DNA of 64,000 nucleotides from Nostoc sp. FACHB-280 (lineage in GTDB: Bacteria; Cyanobacteriota; Cyanobacteriia; Cyanobacteriales; Nostocaceae): positions 124,001 through 188,000 of the forward strand of contig NZ_JACJSD010000005.1 of assembly GCF_014697615.1 (NCBI RefSeq), in the 5' to 3' direction. Under the pieces are notes generated by a model. That model did no database searches. It was given only the letters and a program-made list of their open reading frames with translations, and was not told where the DNA came from. Both the position numbers and the translations under genes were made by a program. Of the stretch, positions 16,567-51,788 are shown in pieces. Positions within the stretch are counted from its first letter, which is position 1; each line of letters starts with the position of its first letter.

Positions 16567-16640
16567 TCGGAGCGGCGGGATTCGAACCCACGACCTCCAC
16601 TACCCCAAAGTGGCGCGCTACCAAGCTGCGCTACGCCCCG
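16567..16640 (-). tRNA. tRNA-Pro (anticodon GGG)
   Basis: Full cloverleaf on the minus strand: acceptor CGGGGCG/CGCTCCG with one G-U pair, D arm GCGC...GCGC, anticodon stem CCACT/AGTGG with loop TTGGGGT (anticodon GGG), T arm GTGGG-TTCGAAT-CCCGC. Discriminator A, no encoded CCA. 74 bases including the discriminator. Reads CCC and CCU codons. Confidence 0.95.
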
Positions 16641-33886: not shown

Positions 33887-34957
33887 TTAAATTGTGACTG
33901 TAAAGATACTACCCCTAGATTGATTATCTTCAATGGTAATTGTGCCGTAATGTGCCTCAACTGCCATTTTACAAAAAGCTAATCCTAAGCCAATTTGCGA
34001 CACATCCGGCATTAGTGTACCTACTTCATACTTATCAAAAATAATTTTGCGTAAATCTTCAGAAACACCTTTACCAGAATCGATGACTTGTAACTTTGCT
34101 CCGCCTGTTGGTAAATATTCCGCACGCAAGGTAACTTGTGATTTGGATGGGGAAAACTTAATAGCATTAGTGAATAAATTATCTAAAACACGACGGAACA
34201 TTAAAGCATCAATTTCAATTGTGCCGCCAGGTTCTGGTAATTCACTAATTAAGGTGATTTTCTTTTGGGCGGCGATCGCTTCGACATCTGATAATGCTGA
34301 TTGACACAAAGAATGTAAATCTACTTGACTGTAATTGAGAACCATTTTGCCTGATTCCAATTTGGCCATGAGCAGTAAGCTATCAATTAAGGATTGGAGT
34401 TGTTGTCCAGCCAGTAAAATTTGCTCCACTTTTCCTTGTTGCTGTTTTTGGGATAAGCTTGGAAATTTCAGCATTTCAGCCCCTAAAACAATACTTGCCA
34501 AGGGATTTCGCAAATCATGGACAATCATATTTACCATGTCTTCGCGCAGTTTTAACAATAATTGTAGGCTGTCATACTGCTGCTTAATTCGCAACATAGA
34601 ATGAACTCTGGCACGTAATTCTACACCGTTGACGGGTTTACTAATAAAGTCATCTGCACCTGTAGCTAGACATCGAGCTAAATCTTCTTTAGCCGTTAAT
34701 GCCGTCACCATAATAATAGGAACGGCTTGCCACTTGGGTTGAGACTTGATGCGTTTACAGACTTCCATCCCATCCAGATCAGGCATCATCACATCCAGCA
34801 AAATCAAATCTGGCTGAAAACCATCCAGACGACTTAGAGCTTGTTGGCCATCAGGAGAATAGTGTAACTGGTAGTTTTCACCATCCAGCAAAGTTTCAAC
34901 AACATCAAAGTTATCTGGCTCATCATCAATAACTAAAATAGTGGATTGAGTCTTCAT
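33887..34957 (-). CDS. Response regulator-histidine kinase (REC-HisKA-HATPase)
   Basis: 356 residues. Receiver domain 1-120 with Asp55 (LILLDVMMPDLDG) and Lys in FISKPV. The kinase part follows with His147 in IVHDLRNPLASI, N box NLFTNAIKFS, G1 DSGKGV and G2 GLGLAFCKMAVEAHYG. This is a receiver-first kinase, often the second step of a phosphorelay fed by another hybrid kinase. Its start is 12 bases after the stop of the giant hybrid kinase, so both are one operon and probably partners. Confidence 0.93.
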   Translation of the reverse strand: MKTQSTILVIDDEPDNFDVVETLLDGENYQLHYSPDGQQALSRLDGFQPDLILLDVMMPDLDGMEVCKRIKSQPKWQAVPIIMVTALTAKEDLARCLATGADDFISKPVNGVELRARVHSMLRIKQQYDSLQLLLKLREDMVNMIVHDLRNPLASIVLGAEMLKFPSLSQKQQQGKVEQILLAGQQLQSLIDSLLLMAKLESGKMVLNYSQVDLHSLCQSALSDVEAIAAQKKITLISELPEPGGTIEIDALMFRRVLDNLFTNAIKFSPSKSQVTLRAEYLPTGGAKLQVIDSGKGVSEDLRKIIFDKYEVGTLMPDVSQIGLGLAFCKMAVEAHYGTITIEDNQSRGSIFTVTI

Positions 34958-34969
34958 CGAAAAGTTTTA

Positions 34970-37900
34970 CTATCTTCCTAAAAGTTTTTGAATTGTGGCT
35001 ACAAGCTGTTTAAGTTTTACAGGTTTAGTTAAATATTCGTTAGCGCCAGCAGCTAAACAAGTTTCGCGATCGCCTGGCATAGCTAAAGCTGTCAGGGCAA
35101 TCATCGGGATATTGATAAACTGCTGATCACCACGGATGCGACGCATAGCCTCTAAACCATCCATTCCCGGCATTTGAATATCCATCACAATTAAGTCAGG
35201 GTGTTTAACTTTCACCAGATCAATAGCTTGTTGTCCATTGTTGGCAAACATCAAATCATAGCCTCGACTAGCCAGATAACCAGACATGGTATCAATATTT
35301 GCTTGATTATCTTCAACCAACAAAATTATAGGATTAGCTAAAGCTGCCGCAGGTGCTAAATTGAGATTTTGCGCTTCCGCAGCCGGAGAATTTCTTAGTT
35401 TGCCTATAGTTGTCTGGAGTTGCTCGCGGGTAATCGGTTTAACTAAATATTCAAATGCACCCTGAGCTATTCCTTTAGGACGCTCATCAACTACAGAAAA
35501 GATAATCACAGGAATATTTCGAGTTTGGGGATGAGTCTTGAGTTGATGAAGTACATCCCAACCCGATAGGTTAGGTAGTTGCAAATCCAAGATTACTAGC
35601 GCAGGTTTAATCCGTAGTACTTCTTCTACGGCTCCTTCGCCTTGAGGATAGGTAATGGTTTGGATTCCCATTTCCTGAAAATAGCGAGTAATTTGGTCTG
35701 CTGCTGCTACAGAATCTTCTATAATTAAAACCTGAGCATTCTCAACAGGCCAGCTATGGCTGGGTAATGAAGCCGTAATTGGTGTTGTAACTACATGCTC
35801 ATTGGTATGGCACGGAACACGGACAGTAAAACAACTTCCTTCGCCAACTTTACTGCTAACTGAAACTGTTCCTCCATGCAGCTTGACAATGCGCTGCACC
35901 AGTGCCAAACCTAAACCTGTGCCATTGTAGTGGCGGTTCAGGCTACTGTCAAGCTGAACGAAGGGCTGAAACAATTTGCCCATTTCTTCTGGAGCAATCC
36001 CAATGCCAGTATCAGTAACATAAAAGCAAAGATTGGCCTTATTTGTGGGCGAATTGATTTCTGTTGTTTCCTGTACTTCTTCCTGTCGAACTTCGATGGT
36101 GACAGAACCTCCTTCTGGGGTGAATTTGACAGCGTTGCTCAGTAGATTAATCATTACTTGACGTAGACGGCGCTCATCTACTTGGATACTGTCGATATTG
36201 CCATCAATATCAGTGTTGAGACGAATATTCTTTTTTAACGCCATTTGTTTGACAAAGGTGAGACTGGCATCACACAAACTTCTGACTGAAACATTACTTA
36301 ATTGCAATTCCAGTTTGCCAGACTCAATTTTTGATAAGTCGAGAATGTCATTGATTAGTTCGAGTAAATGTCTACCACTACGTTCAATGGTGGCGATCGC
36401 TTTGATTTGGCGTTCATTCAATGAGCCAAAGACACTTTCTTGTAAACCCTCTGACATACCCAAAATCGCATTCAGGGGTGTTCGCAATTCGTGGCTCATG
36501 TTGGCAAGGAATTCGTCTTTGAGGCGAGTGGCTCGTGCCAGTTCAATGTTAGTGTTGATTAACTGTTTATTGGTTTGCCGTAATTCTTCTTCAGCTTGTT
36601 TGCGATCGCGAATATCAAATAAAGTGGCGCGGTTATATAAATAATTCCCCTCAGTATCTTTTACCGCCGTGGCGTTAATCAAGACTGGCAAGATTGTGCC
36701 GTCTTTACAGACCATTTCATACTCTAAATCTTTAGCCCAGCCTTGCTGTTTGCTGTGATGATCATTCTGCTCAAAGGTCAAGCGACTGTCTGCGGTAAAA
36801 AAGTTTACTAAAGGTTGACCAATCATTTCTGCTCGACTGTACCCCAACCATTGCAATTCTGTTTCGTTAACTTTAATAAATCGACCTTCTTGATCTAAGG
36901 AATGATAACCACAAGGAGCATTATTATATAAATCTTCAACTTCATGGGCATATTTCGCCAAGGCTTCTTGGGCTTGTTTGCGATCGCTAATGTCAGTTAT
37001 CCGCACTATATTCATGGTACGTCCGGCGACAGTAATTGGCTTGGCGGCAGCATTTCCCCAAAAAGTCTTGCCTTTTAAGGTTACATATTCAATTTCGCGG
37101 CTCCAAACTCCTTGACACTCCATTTCTGCCATAATTGCCGCAGTTTCCTGGGCAGTGAATGGTTGGCGCTGGAGTGCCTGACCATTAATATTAATTAATT
37201 CAGTTTTGTCTACCGCCTCAAATAATTCTACAGCCCGACGATTACAATCTAAGGTGAGGAGCGTTGACGAATCAACTAAAAAAATTGCATCGGCAGATTC
37301 GTTAAAAATGGCTTCCCGCAAATCTCGGTTGCGGATCAGTTCTTGTTGAGCTTGTTTGTGATCGGTAATGTCAAAGTTAACGCCAATTACTCGGACAGGT
37401 TCACCTTGCGGGTCTCGTTTGAGAATACCGTAACCTTTGAGGAAACGAATTGCGCCACTTGGTTGGATAATCCGAAACTCAACATTATATTCTTGCCTTC
37501 CTTCAATAACTTGCTGGATACTCGCCAGCATATAATCCCAATCTTCTGGGTGCAAGAAGTTCAACCAAGCATCATAGGTACCAGTAAACTCCCCTGGACT
37601 CAACCCATACAGTTCACACATTTGGTCATCCCAAATTTGTTTTTCTTGGGTAAAATCATATTCCCAAATGCCAAATTTGCCGGATTGTAGTGCTAATGTC
37701 AGTCTTTCTGAAAGGTGATGCAGTTGTGCTTCGGTTTGTTTGCGACTGGTAATATCTGTTAGTGTGCCGATATAACCAATTACTTCCCCATTGGTGTTAG
37801 TCTCGGCTAACACATAGCAGTGAAACCACTTCACACTACCATCTGGAAGGAGATGTCTACCTTCGTTGTCAAAAAGTTCGTTTGGTGCTAACTCTGCTTC

Positions 37901-40900
37901 AAACCATTCCCGGACAATGCGCTCACTGTCATCTGGGTGTATGGCATCTATCCAACCTGTTCCTAATCCTGCCGATGTTGGTCTACCTGTCATTTCGCTC
38001 CAGCGATCATTAATGTAGACACAATTACCTGCGGTATCAAGTCGGAAAATTGCGACAGGAGCGGCTTTGGCTAAGGTGGCATAACGGTGTTCACTATCTC
38101 GTAGGGCTTCTTCGGCTTGGCGGCGATCGCTAATATCTGTTAATGTGCCGATGTAGCCGCAAAAGTTCCCGTTACTGTCGATTTCGGGAACTGCTTGGAC
38201 ATAAAACCAGTTAATACTACCATCTGGCCGCAGATGTCTACCTTCACTTTCATAGTATTCTCTGGGGTCAACAATTCCTTGCTCAAATTTGAAGTCCCAT
38301 TCTGCCTTTAAGCGATCGCGGTCTTCTGGATGTACAGATGCTACCCACCCCAGTCCTAATGCAGACTGTGTTGGCCTACCACTCATTTCGCTCCAGCGAT
38401 CGTTCACGTAAATACATTGGCCAGCAGCATCCAACCGGAAAATACCCACAGGTGCGGCTTCTGTTAAATGGGCATAACGACGTTCGCTTTCTCGGAGTGC
38501 TTCTTCTGTTTGTTTACGTTCAGTGATATCGGTAAAAGTGCCAATGTAGCTAATAATAGTGCCGAAAGGATTGGTTTCTGGTAGGAGTTGTAAGTAAAAC
38601 CAAGTGGTAGTGCCATTTGTATGTAAATATCTACCTTCCTGGCGGATTTGCCCACATCCTTGGGATAACTGCATCCACAAATGATCACGGTCTTCTGGAT
38701 GTAAACTTTCTAACCAACCCATTGCCATTGCGGCTGATGTTGGTCTACCTGTCAGCTTACTCCAGTAATCATTCACGTAAATACATTGACCAGTGGTATC
38801 CAGGCGAAAAATCGCCACTGGTGCGGCTTCTGTTAAAGTTTCATAACGACGTTGGCTTTCTTTGAGGGCAGCTTCAATTTGTTTCTGCTGGGTAATATCT
38901 TTGGCAATCCCTAAAAATCCAATGTTGTTACCTTCTATATCGAGTAGGGTTTTTACTGACAAAAATACAGGGAAGCGAGTACCATCTTTGCGAATGTAAG
39001 TCCATTCATTTTCATAGGTGTTGCCATTTTGAGTGACAGTTATAAAAAATTCTGCCCCTGGAGCAATTTCTCGCCCCAGTTTCGCAGACACTTCTCCTGC
39101 TCGTTGTTGGAGTTCTTCTTGATCATGAAAAACACTGGGCTTGATTTGATTCACAACTTCATCTGCGGTGTAGCCCAACATTTTTTGAGCAGCTTTGTTA
39201 AAGGTTTGGATACCATTGGCGTTATTAAAAATAATTGCATAGTCACTGCCATCTAAAATGGCTTGTTGCAACCGATTGACCGCAATTAATTGGGCTTCGA
39301 TTTTTTTGCGTTGGGTAATATCAACGTGGCAACCAATCATCCGCAGGGGATTACCTTCTTGATCCCAAGCAATGACGCGTCCAGAACAAATTACCCAAAC
39401 AGTAGAACCATCTTTATGCTGATATCGTAATTCGCTGTAATAGGGGATTTCTCCATGACTTTGAACATGTTGCTGGAACATTTCGAGAGCATTGGCTAAA
39501 TCTTCTGGAAAAATCAGTTTTTGCCAGCTTTCTGGGTTGTTGGGCAACTCATGATCTTCGTAGCCAAACATTTTCTTGAAGGTGGGGCTGAGGTATTCCT
39601 GATTGTTGGGAATATCCCAGTCCCAATAACCAGCTAAACTGACTTCGAGAATTTGTTCCAAGAGATTTAATTCCATCCGCAGCATTTCTGATTGCTGCCG
39701 TTCGGCTTCTGAGTGTTTGTGTTCGGTAATGTCCATCAACACGCCTAGCACTCTGAGCAGTTGTCCACTCTTGTTGTAGATTCCCCTGCCCTTCACAGAT
39801 ACCCAGTGAATGCTGCTATCTTGCCAAATAACGCGGTATTCGACAGCATAATCGGTTTGGGTTGCGATCGCCTGCCGCAATTCCTGCTCTACCCATTGCC
39901 GATCTTCTGGATGTACGCAACTCAACCATTGTTCTAAAGTCAACAGTACATCATTGGCATCAGTGGCAACTCCGTGAATGGCGTTTTGACTGGCAACTAT
40001 TTGATTAGTCATGGGATTCCACTCCCAATAGCCAATCCCCGTAAAGTTTAAGGTCAGCTTCAGTTTCTCTTCACTAGCTTTTAAGGCTGCTTCGGCACGT
40101 TGGCGTTCTGCTAGTTCTGTCTTTAGTTGCTCATAAGCACTGGCTTGTTGAATGGCGATCGCAATCTGCACCCCTAATTGATCTAACAAGTCCAACTCTA
40201 CCGTTTGCCAGTGGCGAAAATTACTACATTGTTGAGCAATTAATAATCCCCATAATTCCTCTTTGACCAAAATTGGGACTACCAGATATGCTTTGACTTC
40301 AAATTGTTCTAAAAGATGTAGATGACATTTGGTTAAGCCAGCTTGATAAATATTGTCAATGGCTCTTTTTTTGCCTTGGAGATAGTCACGCCCTCCGCCC
40401 TGTTGAAAGCAGGTATCTTGAATTTGCCTTCCGAAAGCGACTGTCCAACCGGGTAGCACTGACTCAGCCACAATACTGCCACTCATATCCGACTGAAACT
40501 GATAGACAAGCACTCGGTCGGCTTGTAAAAATTGCCGTACTTCTGTAGCTGTGGTACTGAGAATTTCTTCGAGTTGTAGCGACTGCCGAATACGTAAAGC
40601 GATCGTGGCAAATAGTTGCTGTTGTTCCTGAATTTGTTCTAACTTGCGAGTCAGATGTATTCGTTCTACTGCATGATGAATGGCACTGTGTAAGGCTTTG
40701 GGCGTAAAATGATTTTTCACTAAGTAATCTTGAGCGCCATATTTCATAGCGTTAACAGCAATCATTTCATCGCCTGCTCCTGTCAGCATAATCACAGCCG
40801 ATTGGCGATTCTTCAGCTTTTCTCTCAGGTGTTGTAAAAAATCGATGCCATCTCCATCTGGCAACAAATAATCCAGCAAAATTACATCTGGCGTTTGCTG

Positions 40901-41050
40901 CTCGCAACATGTCATTGCTTGTGTTGCTGTCTCAAATTCTAAAATTTCATAAGACTGGAATCTGTCGTGCTGTAAATACTGACGATAGATATAACGATCT
41001 ACAGCAGAATCATCAATTAAGAAGATAGTGAGGGCAGAGCGATCGCTCAT
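34970..41050 (-). CDS. Giant hybrid kinase: REC-bilin-type GAF-nine PAS-HisKA-HATPase-REC-REC
   Basis: 2026 residues. Receiver 1 about 5-130 (Asp60). GAF about 145-305. Nine PAS/PAC units about 325-445, 460-580, 590-722, 733-845, 857-975, 987-1105, 1113-1230, 1243-1358 and 1368-1485. HisKA with His1520 (MSHELRTPLNAI), HATPase about 1625-1750 (GTGLGLALVQRI), receivers with Asp1822 and Asp1957. The GAF has both cysteine motifs of DXCF cyanobacteriochromes: Asp212-Thr-Cys214-Phe and Cys242-His243 in AGLTKCHLHLLEQF, plus the family's VVPILVKEELWGLLIAQQC. A covalently bound bilin and light input are therefore likely (inference). PAS units 4-6 are near-repeats. Soluble, no membrane segment. First gene of an operon with the REC-kinase at 33887. 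Confidence 0.93.
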   Translation of the reverse strand: MSDRSALTIFLIDDSAVDRYIYRQYLQHDRFQSYEILEFETATQAMTCCEQQTPDVILLDYLLPDGDGIDFLQHLREKLKNRQSAVIMLTGAGDEMIAVNAMKYGAQDYLVKNHFTPKALHSAIHHAVERIHLTRKLEQIQEQQQLFATIALRIRQSLQLEEILSTTATEVRQFLQADRVLVYQFQSDMSGSIVAESVLPGWTVAFGRQIQDTCFQQGGGRDYLQGKKRAIDNIYQAGLTKCHLHLLEQFEVKAYLVVPILVKEELWGLLIAQQCSNFRHWQTVELDLLDQLGVQIAIAIQQASAYEQLKTELAERQRAEAALKASEEKLKLTLNFTGIGYWEWNPMTNQIVASQNAIHGVATDANDVLLTLEQWLSCVHPEDRQWVEQELRQAIATQTDYAVEYRVIWQDSSIHWVSVKGRGIYNKSGQLLRVLGVLMDITEHKHSEAERQQSEMLRMELNLLEQILEVSLAGYWDWDIPNNQEYLSPTFKKMFGYEDHELPNNPESWQKLIFPEDLANALEMFQQHVQSHGEIPYYSELRYQHKDGSTVWVICSGRVIAWDQEGNPLRMIGCHVDITQRKKIEAQLIAVNRLQQAILDGSDYAIIFNNANGIQTFNKAAQKMLGYTADEVVNQIKPSVFHDQEELQQRAGEVSAKLGREIAPGAEFFITVTQNGNTYENEWTYIRKDGTRFPVFLSVKTLLDIEGNNIGFLGIAKDITQQKQIEAALKESQRRYETLTEAAPVAIFRLDTTGQCIYVNDYWSKLTGRPTSAAMAMGWLESLHPEDRDHLWMQLSQGCGQIRQEGRYLHTNGTTTWFYLQLLPETNPFGTIISYIGTFTDITERKQTEEALRESERRYAHLTEAAPVGIFRLDAAGQCIYVNDRWSEMSGRPTQSALGLGWVASVHPEDRDRLKAEWDFKFEQGIVDPREYYESEGRHLRPDGSINWFYVQAVPEIDSNGNFCGYIGTLTDISDRRQAEEALRDSEHRYATLAKAAPVAIFRLDTAGNCVYINDRWSEMTGRPTSAGLGTGWIDAIHPDDSERIVREWFEAELAPNELFDNEGRHLLPDGSVKWFHCYVLAETNTNGEVIGYIGTLTDITSRKQTEAQLHHLSERLTLALQSGKFGIWEYDFTQEKQIWDDQMCELYGLSPGEFTGTYDAWLNFLHPEDWDYMLASIQQVIEGRQEYNVEFRIIQPSGAIRFLKGYGILKRDPQGEPVRVIGVNFDITDHKQAQQELIRNRDLREAIFNESADAIFLVDSSTLLTLDCNRRAVELFEAVDKTELININGQALQRQPFTAQETAAIMAEMECQGVWSREIEYVTLKGKTFWGNAAAKPITVAGRTMNIVRITDISDRKQAQEALAKYAHEVEDLYNNAPCGYHSLDQEGRFIKVNETELQWLGYSRAEMIGQPLVNFFTADSRLTFEQNDHHSKQQGWAKDLEYEMVCKDGTILPVLINATAVKDTEGNYLYNRATLFDIRDRKQAEEELRQTNKQLINTNIELARATRLKDEFLANMSHELRTPLNAILGMSEGLQESVFGSLNERQIKAIATIERSGRHLLELINDILDLSKIESGKLELQLSNVSVRSLCDASLTFVKQMALKKNIRLNTDIDGNIDSIQVDERRLRQVMINLLSNAVKFTPEGGSVTIEVRQEEVQETTEINSPTNKANLCFYVTDTGIGIAPEEMGKLFQPFVQLDSSLNRHYNGTGLGLALVQRIVKLHGGTVSVSSKVGEGSCFTVRVPCHTNEHVVTTPITASLPSHSWPVENAQVLIIEDSVAAADQITRYFQEMGIQTITYPQGEGAVEEVLRIKPALVILDLQLPNLSGWDVLHQLKTHPQTRNIPVIIFSVVDERPKGIAQGAFEYLVKPITREQLQTTIGKLRNSPAAEAQNLNLAPAAALANPIILLVEDNQANIDTMSGYLASRGYDLMFANNGQQAIDLVKVKHPDLIVMDIQMPGMDGLEAMRRIRGDQQFINIPMIALTALAMPGDRETCLAAGANEYLTKPVKLKQLVATIQKLLGR

Positions 41051-47129: not shown

Positions 47130-47864
47130 ATGACCAAAAAAATATTAGTAATTGAAGATGAAGTTCAAATCTGCTCGAACATTCAGCAGATTTTAGGATT
47201 GTCTGATTTTCAGACTATTAGTGCTAATAATGGTTTAGATGGATTACGCCTAGCTAAATCAGAAAAACCAGATTTGATATGTTGTGATATTATGATGCCC
47301 GATTTGGATGGCTATGGCGTACTTAAAGCCTTACGCGAAGACTCTGAAACTGATTCTATCCCCGTAATTTTACTGACTGCAAAAGTTGAGCGCAGTGATT
47401 TACGTTATGGTATGGAGTTAGGAGCAGATGATTACATCACAAAGCCTTTTTCTCCAGAAGAACTGTTGAAGGCAATTCAGATGAGGCTGGCACGGGTAGC
47501 AAAACCTACCTTGATGAAACAAAAGTATGAAAAAGAACGTCAACAAAATATCAAACTTAAACAAGAAATTCAAGTTAGTCAGCAAAAGTTAGAAGAAACT
47601 AAGCAATTAGCTGATATGCGAAATGAGGTTTTAGAAAAGCTGTTGCAAGATTTAAGCAATCCACTTTCTAATATTAATATGGCGGTGCATATGCTCAAGC
47701 AGGTGCAATCCGAAAATGACCGCGATCGCTACTTGAAGATTTTACAAGAAGAGTATGATCGAGAAATTATGCTTTTAAATGAAATGAAAAATTTACAAGC
47801 ATTATTAACTCCAGAAAATGCCAAAATTTTGCAGAAGTTTAATTTATTGCATCACAGTAAATAG
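47130..47864 (+). CDS. Response regulator with degenerate DHp-like helix
   Basis: 244 residues. Full receiver domain (Asp53 in LICCDIMMPDLDG, Lys in YITKPFSP). A coiled coil (about 130-165) and a helix with LLQDLSNPLSNINMAVHMLK (about 171-190) follow. The latter matches the HisKA H box except that the phosphorylated His is Gln173, and no HATPase domain follows. It looks like a decayed or repurposed REC-kinase, closely related in its receiver to the next gene, with which it is in series. Confidence 0.88.
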   Translation: MTKKILVIEDEVQICSNIQQILGLSDFQTISANNGLDGLRLAKSEKPDLICCDIMMPDLDGYGVLKALREDSETDSIPVILLTAKVERSDLRYGMELGADDYITKPFSPEELLKAIQMRLARVAKPTLMKQKYEKERQQNIKLKQEIQVSQQKLEETKQLADMRNEVLEKLLQDLSNPLSNINMAVHMLKQVQSENDRDRYLKILQEEYDREIMLLNEMKNLQALLTPENAKILQKFNLLHHSK

Positions 47865-49964: not shown

Positions 49965-51788
49965 GTGAAAATTCTGCTGGTAGAGGATGATTTACCAACT
50001 GCAACCGTACTGAGTGAGGTTCTCAAGACGGAATGTTATGCAGTTGAACTGGCAACAGATGGTCAAAATGGATTAGCTTTAGCAACCTTGTCCAATTTTG
50101 ACTTGATATTGTTAGACCTGCTGATACCCAAACTAGATGGAATTAAACTTTGCCGTCAACTCCGCGCTCAAGGGATGCAAAAACCGATTCTGTTGCTAAC
50201 CGCGAAAGACCACAGTAATGATGTGGTCACAGGATTGGATGCAGGTGCAGATGATTACGTCACAAAACCTTACGATATCTCAGAGTTGTTAGCCAGAATA
50301 CGAGCATTGTTGCGGCGTGGACAAACAGAACTGACACCAAGTTTACTGCGTTGGGGAAATCTCTGCATTAACACCACCTCGGCAGCAGTGACATATCAAG
50401 GTAAGCCGATATCATTAAGTCCCAAGGAATATAGTTTGCTAGGGCTATTTTTGCGTCATCCACAGCGCGTATTTAGTCGCAGTGAGATTATTGACCGTCT
50501 TTGGTCAATAGATACCTCACCCAGTGAAGGCGCTGTAACTAATTTGATTAAAGACTTGCGACACAAGCTGAAAATAGCCGGAATGTCTGCGGAATTATTA
50601 GAGACAGTTTATGGTTTGGGCTATCGGCTCAAGACTGTGCCACTAACTCAGCAGACAGACACAACAGTAACAGCAAAACGGCAAACTGCGATCGCTTCTA
50701 TCAAGAAAACCATAGAACGCTACAAAGATACATTTACCGAACGAGTTAGTTTGCTAGAACAAGCCGCACAAGCCTTACATCAAGGAAAATTATCATCTGA
50801 ACTACGGCAGCAAACCAGTCAAGAAGCCCATAAACTAGCAGGTACATTAAGTTCTTTTGGCTATAGCACAGGCTCAAAGTTAGCTCAGTCTATTGAACAT
50901 TTGCTGATTCAGGATAAAAATCTCACCTCGCAGGATGCTGTGAAACTATCACAATTAATTGCTCAAATCAAAGAAACACTAACTCAACCACCAACATTCA
51001 GCACCCTTGACCAATTTGCAAATATCCAACTTCCTCTCGTGCTGGCTATCAATGATCAATCTTTTAATCACCAACTCAAAACCGAAGCTGTGAATTGGGG
51101 AATGCAGATAGAAGTAGCCATGAATTGGGAGAGTATTCAACATCAAGTTTCACAACTGCCCAAGGTGATTCTGCTTTATTTAAATGAGCAAGCATCAATG
51201 CCAAAGAGTTTACAACTGCTGAATAAACTCAAACAACAATTTCCCAAAATACCAATTTTTGTTATAGCAGAGCAAGACAACTTCACGCAGCGAGTTGCTG
51301 TAGCTCGTGCTGGTGTCCAAGGATTTCTCACCAAACCCAACACTACTGAAGTTTTTCAGGTCATTACTCAAGTTTTACCCAAAACTCCAGCTAATTCAGC
51401 TAAGGTGATGATTTTAGACGATGATCCGATGATGCTGGAAATATTGAGCAATATACTGCTATCTTGGGGGTTAAAAGTCGAGACATTGCAAAATCCGCAA
51501 AAATTTTGGGAAGTACTGGTTTCAACTCAACCTGATTTATTAATGATTGATTTAGAAATGCCGACATATAGTGGTATGGACTTGTGTCGGGTAGTGAGAC
51601 AAGATCCTCATTGGGGAAATTTGCCAATTTTAGTAGTCACGGCCCATACAGATATGAAATCAGTTCAACAGGTATTGGCAGCAGGGGCTGATGATTTTAT
51701 TGGTAAGCCTGTAGTGGGAACAGATTTAATCCATCGTGTTATGAGCAGAATTGACCGTTATCGTGTACAGCAAAAACTCTCAACTTAA
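49965..51788 (+). CDS. Multi-domain response regulator: REC-wHTH-HPt-degenerate REC-REC
   Basis: 607 residues with a GTG start. OmpR-type receiver 1-118 (Asp51, YVTKPYD), winged-helix DNA-binding domain about 125-222 (ISLSPKEYSLLGLFLRHPQR, VTNLIKDLRHKL), HPt about 245-340 with His289 in AHKLAGTLSSFGY, a receiver-like domain about 355-472 where the Asp position is Tyr405 but FLTKPN is kept, and a normal receiver about 478-605 (Asp529 in LLMIDLEMP). This joins DNA-binding output with a phosphotransfer module in one chain, so phosphate could enter at either intact receiver and be shared through His289. Confidence 0.92.
   Translation: MKILLVEDDLPTATVLSEVLKTECYAVELATDGQNGLALATLSNFDLILLDLLIPKLDGIKLCRQLRAQGMQKPILLLTAKDHSNDVVTGLDAGADDYVTKPYDISELLARIRALLRRGQTELTPSLLRWGNLCINTTSAAVTYQGKPISLSPKEYSLLGLFLRHPQRVFSRSEIIDRLWSIDTSPSEGAVTNLIKDLRHKLKIAGMSAELLETVYGLGYRLKTVPLTQQTDTTVTAKRQTAIASIKKTIERYKDTFTERVSLLEQAAQALHQGKLSSELRQQTSQEAHKLAGTLSSFGYSTGSKLAQSIEHLLIQDKNLTSQDAVKLSQLIAQIKETLTQPPTFSTLDQFANIQLPLVLAINDQSFNHQLKTEAVNWGMQIEVAMNWESIQHQVSQLPKVILLYLNEQASMPKSLQLLNKLKQQFPKIPIFVIAEQDNFTQRVAVARAGVQGFLTKPNTTEVFQVITQVLPKTPANSAKVMILDDDPMMLEILSNILLSWGLKVETLQNPQKFWEVLVSTQPDLLMIDLEMPTYSGMDLCRVVRQDPHWGNLPILVVTAHTDMKSVQQVLAAGADDFIGKPVVGTDLIHRVMSRIDRYRVQQKLST

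Follow-up and report, generated by a model that had tools for sequence, protein, structure and literature searches.

The GAF domain of TePixJ (PDB 4fof, 4glq and 3vv4) is a blue/green sensor of the DXCF type, and it shares with the GAF domain described here the DXCF motif, the Cys-His pair and the 27-residue spacing between their cysteines. TePixJ is named as a methyl-accepting chemotaxis protein, whereas the protein studied here is a hybrid histidine kinase, and the two GAF domains are ~38% identical over their structural alignment. By sequence, the strongest hit among solved structures (E 5.9e-49) is the GAF of a dual-sensor histidine kinase, 6oap, which we take to be PPHK. Here, however, DQYF replaces DXCF, such that the second cysteine is missing, and the domain falls elsewhere in our tree. 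A paralogue from the same genome (G000:C40, L002), along with its relatives L040-L046, has a 63% identical GAF with DTCF and Cys-His and lies in the same 31-row clade, but all of these carry an insert of roughly seven residues before WGLL, and the open frame of L002 is shorter (550 codons). At the level of the circuit, the accessible parts of PMC4937213 and PMC9415938 describe RcaE/RcaF/RcaC and DpxA as systems in which a bilin GAF feeds a kinase and response regulators. The photoreceptor architecture of our locus differs from these, and its kinase and regulator share a signalling island, with the link between the two being putative.

The window, by which we mean the whole stretch of 64,000 nucleotides from Nostoc sp. 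FACHB-280 that was analysed, was initially annotated as encoding a DXCF cyanobacteriochrome GAF at 40136-40618. These coordinates are correct and correspond to residues 145-305 of an ORF at 34970-41050; the annotation had left the strand, which is minus, unstated. Its architecture of REC-GAF-nine PAS-kinase-REC-REC is likewise borne out by Pfam, by nine PAC-type motifs found with a custom sequence pattern and by own-domain profiles. The features are as follows.

34970-41050, minus strand: hybrid histidine kinase, REC-GAF-PAS x9-HK-REC-REC, an ORF of 2026 aa
40667-41035, minus strand: N-terminal receiver, aa 6-128 (own-domain profiles)
40136-40618, minus strand: DXCF cyanobacteriochrome GAF (very probable), aa 145-305 (sequence, tree, fold, structure matches)
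40406-40417, minus strand: DXCF codons D212-T213-C214-F215 (residues located directly)
40322-40327, minus strand: codons of the canonical chromophore Cys242-His243 (residues located directly)
36596-40078, minus strand: array of nine PAS domains, aa 325-1485 (own-domain profiles, PAC-type motifs, Pfam PAS families)
35807-36541, minus strand: HisKA and HATPase_c kinase core, aa 1504-1748, with phospho-acceptor H1520 (Pfam, motifs, profiles)
35393-35740, minus strand: receiver 2, aa 1771-1886, with D1822 (motif positions, profiles)
34979-35335, minus strand: receiver 3, aa 1906-2024, with D1957 (motif positions, profiles)
33887-34957, minus strand: REC-HisKA-HATPase protein of 356 aa, probable operon partner (Pfam, adjacency in relatives)
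49965-51788, plus strand: regulator with three receivers, a winged helix and Hpt, candidate output (Pfam)

In Pfam the 2026-aa protein has three Response_reg stretches, one GAF, HisKA and HATPase_c, and the PAS region is covered by several overlapping families, with up to eight stretches for PAS_9 and seven for PAS_3. The domain profiles were built from the proteins of the window, this one included, and they delimit domains rather than test them; the count of nine PAS domains combines these profiles with the PAC-type pattern and is thus not wholly independent. HisKA with H1520, HATPase_c and receivers with D1822 and D1957 occur in one chain, identifying a hybrid histidine kinase, and the N, G1 and G2 boxes are in place alongside H1520. 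The N-terminal receiver retains D60, T90 and K112. We presume the usual roles for these receiver residues, D60 being the phospho-acceptor, and for the kinase motifs. Judging by titles and the openings of abstracts, we found no published protein with such an architecture or with a variable number of PAS domains.

Direct location of the GAF residues confirmed the motifs initially annotated. DXCF lies at Asp212-Thr-Cys214-Phe215 and the Cys-His pair at Cys242-His243, with 27 residues between Cys214 and Cys242, and the VVPIL...WGLLIAQQC stretch is found downstream in the translation. The sequence marks of a DXCF cyanobacteriochrome are present in the domain: its clade placement, the canonical Cys242 and a second cysteine within D212-T-C214-F. 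In the part of PMC11284453 available to us, a WXDXXL motif is given as the mark of the extended red/green (XRG) lineage. An XRG red/green type was rejected for this GAF, since WXDXXL is absent and IQDTCF stands at that place.

Colour is less readily assigned, and from the residues our first guess would be blue/green, with blue/orange second. The accessible text of PMC5240096 describes a Phe-based trapped twist. The GAF column that we took to hold the beta2 Phe is occupied by Ile193; it is aliphatic in TePixJ too (Val) and is Phe in AnPixJg2, NpR6012g4 and Slr1393g3. A Phe-based trapped twist is therefore unexpected at this column, a statement that concerns beta2 only and sets the helix-4 Phe aside. 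It is possible, if rather unlikely, that the GAF is a bilin-binding, switching domain of another colour, either a blue/orange sensor that keeps phycocyanobilin (PCB) or a teal-shifted subtype. Blue/orange DXCF members are tabulated in the part of PMC4469895 available, among them NpF4973 (435/600 nm), which retains PCB although it is of the DXCF type, and so isomerisation of PCB to phycoviolobilin (PVB) cannot be read from sequence. Likewise, DpxA senses teal and yellow according to the accessible text of PMC4937213. The isoleucine at the column of trapped-twist tuning, however, disfavours teal, and it leaves green and orange unseparated. DpxA itself is, we assume, of the DXCF type.

In a maximum-likelihood tree of 141 GAF rows, the window GAF falls inside a 31-row cyanobacteriochrome clade (support 99/94). 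The rows include 30 from its own genome with loci, out of 57 matches there of which some are partial, and matches in relatives from 29 loci; one search kept the best 80 of 93 matches, and five duplicate rows were dropped. A 97/82 branch, on which the midpoint root also lies, joins this clade with a neighbouring 26-row clade that contains TePixJ, whose own branch is long (0.91) and whose placement the tree program flags as unsure. Phylogeny, a check proposed in the initial annotation, thus places the GAF among cyanobacteriochromes and not outside them, in a tree composed without a non-bilin GAF outgroup. DXCF is present in 30 rows of the 31-row clade and the canonical cysteine in 29, with both in 29, and 22/26 rows of the neighbouring clade have the canonical cysteine and full DXCF. 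Cysteines were lost from L081 (canonical only) and L038 (both), and therefore not all proteins of this type depend on photoreception. The latter row, from locus L067 of genome G014, reads DTYF and EYH at these sites and represents a natural blind version in which the REC-GAF-PAS-HK arrangement and the adjacent REC-kinase are both retained. The DXCF GAF type is ordinary for a cyanobacterium of the Nostoc group, and this domain is one more sensor in a large known family: DXCF with the canonical cysteine occurs in 12/30 GAF rows from the same genome, and 54/60 relatives contain a GAF match at E <= 1e-40.

Intact nine-PAS orthologues are found in Nostoc spongiaeforme FACHB-130 (G005), Nostoc sp. 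TH1S01 (G008) and Nostoc sp. LEGE 06077 (G001), with GAF identities to the window of 93%, 89% and 85%, respectively. Compared with these three, dN/dS is 0.06-0.21 across all 14 domains and 0.09-0.12 for the GAF; given also that 29/31 clade rows keep both cysteines, their presence is more than chance. Two further close orthologues are interrupted, and the gene is therefore possibly dispensable. The G006 orthologue (L060, near 10600) has a frameshift in a T tract that is 8 T long, one more than the 7 T of the window, a difference that could reflect sequencing error or slippage. The G004 orthologue (L063, 9686-10996) is broken in PAS7 by an insert of ~1.2 kb bearing a 436-aa reverse-strand ORF, which by eye we take to be transposase-like. 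A group II intron was rejected as the identity of this insert, for which there was no Rfam match. These interruptions, together with the blind L038 GAF in a protein that nonetheless keeps its layout and kinase neighbour, could suggest that the light sensor is vestigial, with the kinase no longer under control of the GAF and the protein working via its receivers and PAS domains. We consider this improbable for the window protein, in which both cysteines are intact, as in nearly all of its clade, and purifying selection acts on the GAF as it does on the other domains.

Comparison with solved structures points the same way as the tree. By sequence, the 15 strongest among the 60 matches listed (of 79) all have cyanobacteriochrome or derived-fluorescent titles, 6oap being followed by NpR6012g4, miRFP670nano types, 8k9o, AnPixJg2, TePixJ and others; lower among these 60 are mostly phytochromes, with a few titled only 'histidine kinase' or 'diguanylate cyclase'. 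An AlphaFold model of the GAF (48 sequences; pLDDT 87.4, pTM 0.83) gave 432 matches in Foldseek (E <= 0.001), of which the 50 listed are all cyanobacteriochromes, phytochromes or derived fluorescent proteins, and it superposes on the blue form of TePixJ (4fof) with a TM of 0.88 and an rmsd of 1.4 A. Nothing was found in favour of a non-bilin GAF with cysteines kept by chance, a reading to which we give almost no credence. The domain passes no NCBIfam cut-off and the tree lacks non-bilin GAFs, such that exclusion of this reading rests on the structure matches, and on these and the fold it was rejected. The DXCF reading of the initial annotation is accordingly upheld by the 99/94 clade, both cysteines and the TePixJ-like fold, and the GAF is very probably a DXCF cyanobacteriochrome with predicted bilin binding.

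We consider it highly likely that this cyanobacteriochrome is a sensor driving a multi-input hybrid kinase, on the basis of its sequence and phylogeny, the predicted fold, conservation, the genes for bilin supply and gene adjacency. The genome has one ferredoxin-dependent bilin reductase gene, scoring 379.8 bits against the NCBIfam PcyA cut-off of 206, together with three matches to haem oxygenase that exceed their cut-off. By analogy with the family, Cys242 would hold PcyA-made PCB through ring A, and the bilin would probably be isomerised to PVB. In the dark, Cys214 would add to C10, yielding a blue-absorbing 15Z state. Blue light would then isomerise C15=C16 and free Cys214, giving a longer-wave photoproduct that would be green if the bilin is PVB and orange if it is PCB. 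The signal may pass down the C-terminal GAF helix and through the PAS array to change autophosphorylation at His1520, from which phosphate would move to D1822 and D1957 of the two C-terminal receivers and then onward, the adjacent REC-kinase being the most likely partner. The N-terminal receiver may contribute a phosphorylation input at D60. Coupling of sensor to kinase may be weak, with nine PAS domains between them.

The collinear, variable PAS array holds more interest than the GAF and is the feature of this protein most worth following. Across 21 related loci, own-domain profiles count from 2 to 18 PAS domains (the lengths in relatives being 2, 3, 4, 5, 7, 8, 9, 10 and 18), with the caveat that profiles from our own window may miss divergent PAS domains. 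REC-GAF is kept in 20/21 of these loci, the exception being the open frame of L085, which lacks REC; the open frame of L069 contains no kinase, and in L060 and L063 the kinase is found on a second piece. We typed the PAS domains by reciprocal best hits, regardless of position, followed by a community split, leaving out L085 from the PAS comparison and L063b_P1 and L080_P10 (<90 residues) from the typing. This gave 19 types, 16 with at least two members, and nearly the same order recurs throughout. For 16 distinct arrays, 10 of the 307 pair orders conflicted, compared with a mean of 89 and a minimum of 59 in 5000 shuffles; counted directly, 449 pair orders were concordant and 11 discordant. Dropping three close arrays left 9/230 conflicts in 13 (shuffle mean 62, minimum 37), and all 21 proteins, the window included, gave 12/493 (1000 shuffles; mean 165, minimum 134). 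Under nine alternative typing settings the conflicts numbered between 2 and 11 among 279 to 303 pair orders, whereas the shuffles averaged 82 to 92, with minima between 59 and 66. All six conflicting type pairs include type 0, 1 or 9, each of which occurs twice in one protein.

The arrays thus follow what is nearly a single master order, each as an ordered subset of it, which suggests, as the simplest reading, a long ancestral PAS array trimmed by whole-domain losses with a small number of local duplications. Gain of PAS domains by ordered recombination between paralogues is a possible alternative to loss. Building on the trimming of a long array, we tentatively propose, while holding it somewhat short of an even chance, that the protein belongs to a fixed-order family of light-gated kinases: REC and a DXCF GAF, an ancestral set of about 16 or more PAS types trimmed by whole domains to ordered arrays of 2-18, and a kinase, the PAS domains perhaps being interchangeable spacers or swappable co-sensors by which the light signal is gated. 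If this is true, light control must survive large changes in relay length. With this natural length series one can ask what distance a photochemical signal is able to cover within one polypeptide and how many PAS units it can cross, and also whether PAS domains serve as relays, as spacers or as co-sensors.

The REC-HisKA-HATPase gene begins 12 bp downstream of the large gene and adjoins its orthologue in 5/5 close relatives examined (L060-L064), which lends support to the light-fed relay proposed in the initial annotation. A predicted relay through the kinase and its neighbours is therefore plausible. More widely, a REC-HK gene lies downstream in 12/21 related loci. Among the nine without one, L065 is at a contig edge, L072 has ~700 bases left and L085 is followed first by a single receiver and next by a larger kinase; in the remaining six of 21 loci, no REC-HK was found within 4 kb downstream. 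The REC-HK is present at each of the ten loci whose kinase ends in two receivers, five of these loci being near-identical orthologues and so not independent.

On the other side, divergent genes encode a CBS-PAS kinase, a REC protein that matches HisKA weakly, a REC-kinase and the three-receiver regulator. The regulator at 49965-51788(+) is one of three genome matches at E <= 1e-80 and is syntenic in 4/5 orthologous loci; it was not found at the G005 locus, where the genes flanking its place were. The presence of a REC-wHTH-Hpt regulator within the same signalling island is a further likeness to chromatic acclimation systems, and we regard this one as reminiscent of RcaC. In the REC protein at 47130-47864(+), the expected phospho-His place reads, by eye, QDLSNP, and its HisKA-like part is probably not a phospho-acceptor. 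A tRNA-Pro (GGG anticodon) at 16567-16640(-) is the sole Rfam gathering match and the sole tRNA in the window.
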